A DNA stretch of 64,000 bases from Arthrobacter sp. 135MFCol5.1 (GTDB lineage Bacteria > Actinomycetota > Actinomycetes > Actinomycetales > Micrococcaceae): contig NZ_KB895452.1 in the NCBI RefSeq assembly GCF_000374865.1, positions 496,001 through 560,000 on the forward strand, given 5' to 3'. Position numbers and translations under genes: made by a program. Below are positions 3,225 to 63,105 of this stretch, piece after piece. Positions within the stretch are counted from its first letter, which is position 1. Each line of letters opens with the position of its first letter. Under the pieces are notes generated by a model. The model searched no databases and was not told the origin of the DNA. It saw nothing but the letters and a program-made list of their open reading frames with translations.

Positions 3225-3617
3225 TTGAAAAAGATCCGCAAAGCAAACACGGAACACAAGAGCCGCGGCGCAGTAGCTGTGGAGTTTGCACTGGTGGCTC
3301 CCATCCTTCTGTCCGTAGTCGTAGGAATCGTCGAGTTCGCGAACGCCTACAACGCCCAAATTTCCGTGACCCAGGCAGCCAGGGAGGCCGCTCGGACCAT
3401 GGCCGTCAAGAACAGCCAGACCGATGCGAAAGCCGCAGCAGTCGCCGGTGCCCCCGGAGTCAACTCCGCAGCTTTCGCCTACACCTTCAGCCCCGCGGCT
3501 TGCGCGCCAGACACCACGGAAAAGGTAACCATCACCTATTCCGCGACGACTCTGACAGGGCTTTTTGGTAGTTCCGTAACCGTCACCGGAGTGGGAGCAA
3601 TGCGATGCAACGGCTGA
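3225..3617 (+). CDS. TadE-like pseudopilin
   Basis: 130 residues, TTG start preceded by GGGGA. The N-terminus SRGAVAVEFALVAPILLSVV carries a prepilin-like processing site (Gly15, Glu20 at +5, Phe at +6) and one membrane helix, followed by an Ala-rich helical region and an extracytoplasmic domain with two Cys. In Tad systems TadE is a minor pseudopilin matured by the same peptidase as Flp. It overlaps tadG by 13 bp, implying translational coupling. Confidence 0.88.
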   Translation: MKKIRKANTEHKSRGAVAVEFALVAPILLSVVVGIVEFANAYNAQISVTQAAREAARTMAVKNSQTDAKAAAVAGAPGVNSAAFAYTFSPAACAPDTTEKVTITYSATTLTGLFGSSVTVTGVGAMRCNG

Positions 3618-22372: not shown

Positions 22373-23383
22373 TTAGAGTTCGTCGTCGCCGAACGCGGCG
22401 TCGTCCTCTTCGATTGCTGCGGCGCGTGCTGCGAGGTCAAAACCGGGAGGCGAGTCCTTGAGGGACAGGCCCAGTTCAACCAGCTTTGCCTTGACCTCGT
22501 CAATGGACTTTGCACCGAAGTTGCGGATGTCCATCAGGTCGGCCTCGGAGCGGGCAACGAGTTCACCCACGGTGTGGATGCCCTCACGCTTGAGGCAGTT
22601 GTAGGAACGGACGGTGAGGTCCAGATCCTCGATCGGCAGTGCCATGTCGGCTGCCAGGGCAGCGTCGGTGGGCGACGGGCCGATCTCGATACCTTCAGCT
22701 GCGGTGTTCAGCTCACGGGCCAGACCGAACAGTTCCACCAGGGTGGTGCCTGCGGAAGCGACGGCATCGCGCGGGGCGATGGCCTGCTTGGTCTCGACGT
22801 CGACAATCAGCTTGTCGAAGTCGGTGCGCTGCTCAACACGGGTTGCTTCCACGCGGAAAGTAACCTTCAGGACCGGCGAGTAGATGGAGTCGACCGGGAT
22901 ACGGCCGATCTCTGCGTCGCCGGACTTGTTCTGAGCTGCCGAAACGTAGCCGCGGCCGCGCTCGATGGTCAGTTCGAGTTCGAACTTGCCCTTCGAGTTC
23001 AGCGTGGCGATGTGCAGATCCGGGTTGTGGAATTCGACGCCGGCCGGCGGAGCGATGTCCGCGGCGGTGACGACTCCGGGGCCCTGCTTGCGCAGGTAAG
23101 CCACGACGGGCTCGTCGTGCTCGGAGGAAACCGACAGGCTCTTGATGTTAAGGATGATCTCGGTGACATCTTCCTTGACACCCGGAACCGTGGTGAACTC
23201 GTGCAGCACACCATCGATCCGGATGCTGGTTACGGCAGCACCGGGGATGGAGGAGAGCAGGGTACGGCGGAGGGAGTTTCCGAGGGTGTAGCCGAAGCCC
23301 GGTTCCAGCGGTTCGATGATGAACCGCGAACGGTTTTCGGAGACTACCTCTTCGGAGAGGGTGGGGCGCTGTGCAATGAGCAC
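22373..23383 (-). CDS. rpoA: DNA-directed RNA polymerase alpha subunit
   Basis: 336 residues, GTG start with AAAGGA 7 bp upstream. The N-terminal assembly domain contains [20 protein letters not shown]; the C-terminal domain has the [17 protein letters not shown] and [16 protein letters not shown] helices that contact UP elements and activators. A copy of the motif TCATATAGCGG lies 24 bp before the start. The rpsK-rpoA-rplQ order is the conserved alpha operon. Confidence 0.99.
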
Positions 23384-23406
23384 TTAGGTTTCCTTTCGGC
23401 GAGCAT

Positions 23407-23417
23407 CCGCTATATGA
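23407..23417 (-). promoter_or_regulatory. Motif TCATATAGCGG, rpoA copy
   Basis: Exact 11-bp match to the rpoB leader copies, placed 24 bp before the rpoA GTG and thus within the rpsK-rpoA transcript. Confidence 0.5.
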
Positions 23418-23513
23418 CGCAACACAGGTGGTGGAAATTCGGTCTGAAGACTTAACGCGCTGGGCTTGCCCGGGCCATCACTGGTCCGGGCAAGCTCCTG
23501 CTGCGGAAAAGAA

Positions 23514-59297: not shown

Positions 59298-62807
<3,510 letters not shown>

Positions 62808-62895
62808 GAGGGATCCTTCCACAGACCTTCAGGCGTTTTCAGATCTCCCCCGCTGTGCACCCTGCGGAGTGACTCCGCAGCGCTACCATCCGGTT

Positions 62896-62906
62896 CCGCT
62901 ATATGA
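62896..62906 (-). promoter_or_regulatory. Motif TCATATAGCGG, rpoB-proximal copy
   Basis: Exact 11-bp match to the copies at 62978-62988 and 23407-23417. It lies about 90 bp before the rpoB start. Function unknown. Confidence 0.5.
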
Positions 62907-62977
62907 CCCGGGACCCGCGCTGACGATGCTGTGACGTTGTCACGGCACGTTTATTGCCAGCTGCCAGGCAAAGCCCA

Positions 62978-62988
62978 CCGCTATATGA
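62978..62988 (-). promoter_or_regulatory. Motif TCATATAGCGG, rpoB-distal copy
   Basis: Exact 11-bp match, 82 bp from the proximal copy and about 170 bp before the rpoB start. Confidence 0.5.
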
Positions 62989-63105
62989 AGGCTGAAGGTA
63001 AACAGGGAAGACGCAAATATCTACGATACGGCAAAACAACCTACGTGTCTACCCCACATCCGGCCGGATTGCAAGCACCTGTTTTCACGCTGTGCACCGG
63101 GCACC

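Follow-up and report, generated by a model that had tools for sequence, protein, structure and literature searches.

The 11-nt motif TCATATAGCGG is the apical loop of a hairpin in mRNA, the stem of which swaps its bases by compensatory substitutions. The hairpin is found class-wide at rpoA in Actinomycetes, and it has been added before rpoB in some families. Our results point to a control element for making RNA polymerase that is apparently unreported. We describe it in the window, by which we mean the whole stretch of 64,000 nt from Arthrobacter sp. 135MFCol5.1 that was analysed, and which contains the following features.

22373-23383, minus strand: rpoA, RNA polymerase alpha subunit, with a GTG start at 23383 (from the translation)
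23391-23397, minus strand: Shine-Dalgarno sequence GAAAGGA of rpoA, a few nt 3' of the hairpin (read in the sequence)
23398-23425, minus strand: rpoA-leader RNA hairpin with the loop UCAUAUAGCGGA and the stem GCG(U)/(A)UGC (R2 match, folded)
23407-23417, minus strand: exact match to TCATATAGCGG, loop positions 1-11 of the rpoA hairpin
59298-62807, minus strand: rpoB, RNA polymerase beta subunit (from the translation)
62805-62820, minus strand: Shine-Dalgarno sequence GGAAGGA and TTG start (62807) of rpoB (read in the sequence; invariant in the genus)
62887-62914, minus strand: rpoB hairpin 2 with the loop UCAUAUAGCGGA and the stem CCGG(G)/(A)CCGG, which has a G.A mismatch beside the loop (R2 match)
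62896-62906, minus strand: exact match to TCATATAGCGG, loop of rpoB hairpin 2
62969-62996, minus strand: rpoB hairpin 1 with the loop UCAUAUAGCGGU and the stem AGCCU/GGGCU (R2 match, predicted fold)
62978-62988, minus strand: exact match to TCATATAGCGG, loop of rpoB hairpin 1
63023-63051, minus strand: putative rpoB promoter TAGACA-17-TATCGT (9/12 in a consensus scan; a conserved block in 23 leaders of the genus)

Our model R2 matches the three hairpins with E-values of 2.6e-5 (rpoA, filters off), 8.5e-8 (rpoB hairpin 1) and 3.5e-6 (rpoB hairpin 2), all three copies being themselves part of the R2 alignment.

A preliminary description of this DNA had reported three exact minus-strand copies of the motif, two in the rpoB leader and one in the rpoA leader, and no other copy in the window. 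The coordinates of all three are confirmed, and a fourth copy is not found in the 64-kb window even when one mismatch is allowed. All three lie on the sense strand of rpoA or rpoB. Shuffling the window gives a mean of 0.25 matches with at most one mismatch, and three or more were reached in none of 100 shuffles. The further statement that the motif occurs only in RNA-polymerase gene leaders holds within the window. At genome scale it is nearly, but not literally, true, because one of the four exact copies in the whole genome (4.45 Mb) lies elsewhere, in an AT-rich stretch near a contig end (L004), and has no stem. At least three copies are present in 36 of the 37 same-genus genomes (G000-G036), the exception being an assembly that is 68% complete (G027). 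Among the same-genus positions listed, two copies lie about 82-87 bp apart and one tens of kilobases off, and in a few draft assemblies the third copy is on a separate contig. The motif read backwards, our control, has 0-1 copies per same-genus genome. The shuffles and the same-genus counts together rule out a chance repeat as the source of the motif. Non-conservation in related leaders and an equal density elsewhere had been proposed as grounds for refutation; the motif proves to be conserved in related leaders, and an equal density elsewhere was not found.

That the flanks of the copies differ and that there is no larger repeat had also been seen correctly, the differing flanks being the two arms of a stem. 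This stem has 5-7 bp and is free in sequence, and it carries a loop of 12 nt, UCAWAUAGYGGN, in which C2 and G11 can pair on folding, the remainder being the octaloop AWAUAGYG. Other families of the order have this 11-mer before rpoA (L020, L021, L022, L026, L027, L029) or rpoB (L024, L025), with flanks that vary between species and are complementary, such as GGTG[..]CACC, GCG[..]CGC and CCGAG[..]CTCGG. For a set of 24 hairpins we find changes on both sides in 6/6 pairs and a covariation of 0.731, compared with 0.203 +/- 0.041 after shuffling (0/500) and no more than 0.268 with slid arms. A set of 82 hairpins has changes on both sides in 7/7 pairs and a covariation of 0.574, against 0.198 +/- 0.020 after shuffling (0/500) and at most 0.24 in the slid controls. 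G-U pairs are present among the compensatory changes in the larger set, and the motif invariably reads in the sense orientation. The covarying stem, G-U pairs included, and the constant orientation identify the element as an RNA hairpin and not a DNA operator. The preliminary proposal of a binding site on DNA or RNA is strongly supported as far as a specific cis element common to the rpoA and rpoB leaders is concerned, and for RNA only. It is highly improbable that the element is a DNA operator or an alternative promoter element, as the TATAG in the loop and the palindromic stems might suggest, given the compensatory changes and the sense orientation, the lack of constant -35 spacing and the promoter-like sequence elsewhere at rpoB.

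The loop is kept more strictly than the stem. Loop positions 2, 3, 5, 6, 10 and 11 are invariant in 80/80 rpoA leaders, in which position 4 is A or T, position 7 mostly A or G and position 9 mostly C or T. Information amounts to 1.71 bits per nt in loop positions 1-11 and to 0.12 in the 5' flank, which is effectively random. Across the rpoA and phage copies the stem length ranges from 5 to 14 bp on a fixed loop. A new RNA family may be recognised by a stem that covaries and a loop that stays invariant across unrelated lineages. Both are found here, and we regard RNA structure and selection on the hairpin as well supported.

The hairpin is present at the matching position in 80/80 rpoA leaders, which cover many families of the class Actinomycetes and form a sample drawn from the rpoA matches listed and weighted toward rpoA proteins nearer the query. 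In these leaders the median gap from the stem to the Shine-Dalgarno sequence is 4 nt and that from the stem to the start codon 18 nt. Our model R1 matches 179/197 genomes of the class, and the best matches listed sit just upstream of rpoA. Several of the missed genomes have no detectable rpoA in the assembly, and others show the hairpin by eye (L184, L196, L209). Copies with the exact loop precede rpoA in the GTDB genera Streptomyces, Nocardioides, Cutibacterium, Actinomyces, Microbacterium, Nonomuraea, Brevibacterium and Rothia. The hairpin was not found at rpoA in other actinobacterial classes, for which 18 leaders and 16 further loci were searched. At rpoA of the window it is intercistronic in the alpha operon, and rplQ lies downstream of rpoA. 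As a separate observation, the alpha subunit has a C-terminal tail of about 25 residues (window 22373-22450), which the other actinobacterial classes examined lack.

The rpoB copies have a narrower distribution. Leader hairpins are found at rpoB in the family of the window (f1) and in f6, f19, f4 and f73, and were not found in the remaining families checked. Hairpin 1 is present in all nine aligned Micrococcaceae leaders, from five genera; hairpin 2 is kept in the genus of the window and is absent or diverged in the other aligned genera of the family. Within the genus, conservation covers the promoter-like sequence, both hairpins and the Shine-Dalgarno block and does not extend to the linkers. 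Since the putative promoter lies upstream of hairpin 1, both hairpins would be in the 5' UTR. In two rpoB leaders of family f4 (L024 and L402) we noticed a second CATATRGYGG downstream, flanked by GG/CC or GG/CT, in which a G-C pair substitutes for the U1-N12 closing position. Two other parts of the leader of the window are conserved. The rpoB initiation region GGTCTGTGGAAGGATCCCTCTTGGTCGCC (62805-62835) is identical in nucleotide sequence throughout the genus and almost identical across the genera of the family, which exceeds what coding need would suggest. A pyrimidine-rich block, TTTGCGTCTTCCC (62990-63020), just past the predicted transcription start, is conserved across genera and can pair with the block GGGGGAGA near the start codon, with slight covariation. 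A larger common fold of the rpoB leader was rejected, as the predicted long-range helix shows little covariation.

Within its own genome the element is confined to these sites. R1 and R2 model searches and a pattern search showing the flanks return the three hairpins and no fourth, and within the window R2 gives significant matches only before rpoA and rpoB, and none in the rpoA-rplQ gap. A wider regulon was rejected: the weaker R2 matches inspected, in this genome and in others, fall within or antisense to coding genes and have no gene in common; the two matches in f67 are antisense to a gatA-like gene by eye. One good copy (E 1.3e-5) does not belong to an RNA polymerase gene and lies on a plasmid-like contig of 71 kb from a Micrococcaceae genome (L397, about 255-282; G454:C13:65054-65081), where it is followed by the SD-like sequence AAAGGA and, about 1 kb downstream, by a ParB-like gene.

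Several ways in which such a loop might be used can be set aside. A complementary small RNA is not supported, as no complement of the 11-mer occurs in the genome outside the known copies. Neither is tRNA mimicry: tRNA-Glu (L006, by eye) contains TCGTATAGCGG, but not as a hairpin loop. The motif had been said not to fit a -10/-35 promoter at constant spacing, and this is borne out, since its TATAGC has no constant -35 partner; a sigma-70 promoter element is rejected on this ground, the likely rpoB promoter being elsewhere. We also considered that the loop might imitate a single-stranded -10 element and dropped the idea, since C is the usual base (63/80) at the loop position that corresponds to the key T.

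The hairpin is also present in at least three phage lineages, among them the isolated Bifidobacterium phages BadAztec1 and BadAargau2. We scanned viral contigs with a pattern of the loop and a GCG/CGC inner stem that left out six outer positions. The outer pairing of the 49 contigs that matched is bimodal: 40 pair at 6/6 positions and nine at one to four. This bimodality is the unbiased evidence for the stem in phages, because the phage covariation set was chosen for pairing. The 40 fully paired contigs hold 15 distinct hairpins with stems of 9-14 bp. In annotated contigs the hairpin lies between a capsid-like gene (phrog_13692, of unassigned function and preceded by a head-protease-like gene) and a small gene, with a head-tail adaptor coming next. 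The geometry is that seen at rpoA: 18-20 nt separate the stem from the following start codon in most of the 40, and the distance from the upstream stop varies; a few phage copies are 68-128 nt from the next start.

Four more viral copies have other inner stems, namely those of BadAztec1, BadAargau2, L526 and L536. BadAztec1 and BadAargau2 are phages of Bifidobacterium asteroides, and R2 matches BadAztec1 with 1.2e-8 at 3308-3335 of L554. In this reverse-complemented record the copy has a long perfect stem (3301-3342) and occupies the leader that separates the SSB gene from gp16/DNA polymerase; a TATAAT-like sequence lies upstream of it. In L526 the hairpin directly follows a major head gene with relatives in Streptomyces phages. 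L536, a viral contig with a GC of 0.60, has a copy with a 10-bp stem, TCATATAGCGGG, before a small uncharacterised gene (offset 5620, minus strand). From the G+C content, the loop variant AGTGG and a tail protein similar to that of Arthrobacter phages we infer that the hosts of the uncultured contigs may be freshwater actinobacteria. WhiB was of no use as a host marker, as it was found only in L424, where the hairpin-like site looks like a chance match in a coding frame.

The reading that we favour, to which we give a probability of about one half, is that the hairpin is a cis-regulatory RNA and that a host factor binds its loop and sets downstream expression. A loop of fixed sequence on a stem that is free to vary suggests that some molecule, in the simplest case a protein, recognises it; the constant spacing from the downstream start suggests that the downstream initiation region matters; and the host genes concerned, rpoA and rpoB, suggest that the supply of RNA polymerase is the target. 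The invariant loop would be recognised by a host factor that is itself conserved, probably an RNA-binding protein, and this factor, bound beside the Shine-Dalgarno sequence, would alter the access of ribosomes to the downstream cistron or the fate of that cistron. The amount of alpha would be set in this way, and also that of beta and beta-prime where rpoB copies exist; the direction of the effect would, at a guess, be negative. Because the rpoB hairpins are 80-170 nt from the start codon, any effect there would need to be exerted indirectly, by way of the folded leader or of mRNA stability. The coordination of alpha with beta and beta-prime synthesis that the preliminary description had proposed is at most plausible: the rpoA copy is class-wide, the rpoB copies are limited to some families, and the phage copies lie in capsid and replication operons.

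Transcription attenuation is a serious rival because terminator-like hairpins occupy the corresponding gaps in related phages that lack our element, although we consider it unlikely on balance. RNA polymerase or a Nus-like factor would read the nascent loop, and partial termination or pausing would lower the downstream gene, favouring ribosomal proteins over alpha and capsid over connector. It fits that two unrelated phage lineages have the hairpin directly after the capsid gene, before the next gene, and that phages with the same gene order have an ordinary hairpin and T-run at the corresponding gap, after the capsid gene or before the terminal-protein gene. However, no T-run follows the hairpin at rpoA or in most phages, the loop is more conserved than the stem, which is the reverse of an intrinsic terminator, and the constrained distance is the one to the downstream start. 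An intrinsic terminator itself was rejected, as a purine-rich Shine-Dalgarno sequence and not a T-run follows the rpoA stems, and a scan of the minus strand gave no terminator-like site where the rpoB hairpins lie.

A more specific proposal, which we hold to be doubtful, is that RNA polymerase itself, as core or as an alpha-containing intermediate, would bind the hairpin and so gauge and limit its own synthesis throughout the class, and that actinophages would have copied the hairpin to put structural and replication genes under the same sensor. It is also quite doubtful that the hairpin is an element of RNA processing or stability, in which a host endoribonuclease or a protecting protein would read the loop and separate or stabilise the flanking cistrons. 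RNase III sites in phage T7 and in rplL-rpoB of E. coli offer an analogy. The placement between cistrons, seen in the alpha operon as well as in structural operons of phages, would suit this, as would a variable stem of 5 to 14 bp under a fixed loop, but the spacing to the downstream Shine-Dalgarno sequence is tight, and the copies of rpoB and BadAztec1 are probably in 5' UTRs behind promoter-like sequences of their own and not between co-transcribed genes. Still less probable is a ribosomal-protein leader, in which L17 or another ribosomal protein of the alpha operon would bind the hairpin and repress rpoA-rplQ. Such leaders are common in the alpha operon (PMC7247131), where the hairpin lies. 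Yet it is also found before rpoB and in phages and not before rplQ, and the R1 matches in the genome of the window are the three known hairpins only. We considered the C-terminal extension of L17 as a marker of the ligand and rejected it, as its distribution does not track the hairpin and includes several classes that lack it.

We compared the hairpin with known RNA elements. Rfam 15 gives no family match in the window at the gathering threshold, Lacto-rpoB (RF01709) included; at E<=1 only one unrelated weak match is found in 12 loci, and at E<=0.5 one in 4 phage loci. In the open-access literature, which was the scope of our search, the hairpin is not described. The MS2 coat operator is a phage hairpin bound by one protein next to the Shine-Dalgarno sequence. 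It resembles our hairpin in being small, with specific loop bases, a free stem and an adjoining ribosome-binding site, but the loop is unrelated and the binding protein here is a postulated one. ANTAR-target RNAs consist of two adjacent hairpins with hexanucleotide loops, and rpoA has a single hairpin with a 12-nt (or 8-nt) loop; CsrA/RsmA sites have GGA in a hairpin loop, and here the GG of the loop is followed by T in 24/80, G in 36/80 and A in 20/80. Both were rejected.

The Lacto-rpoB RNA, as its name suggests, lies upstream of rpoB. It is a conserved structure of Lactobacillales that is listed as a probable cis-regulator (PMC2864571). It comes from another phylum and gives no Rfam match, and our hairpin is single, small and centred on rpoA. 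The S4 alpha-operon leader, upstream of rpsM or rpsD, is larger, whereas our hairpin is single and at rpoA itself. In E. coli the S4 leader controls the operon that contains rpoA. It has also been reported for other phyla, and an L17 leader, listed for rplQ alone, has been predicted for Actino- and Proteobacteria (PMC7247131). The latter is likewise an actinobacterial cis RNA element associated with the region of rpoA and rplQ, but our hairpin precedes rpoA and rpoB, and there is no convincing R2 match before rplQ in the genome.

Outside E. coli it is poorly understood how the level of RNA polymerase is set in bacteria, and control at the RNA level in actinobacteria, which include many antibiotic producers, was not found in the open-access literature searched. 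A fixed loop in essentially every sampled rpoA leader of the class implies a partner that would be equally conserved and is apparently unreported. The phages that share the loop may provide an independent handle on this partner and on its effect.
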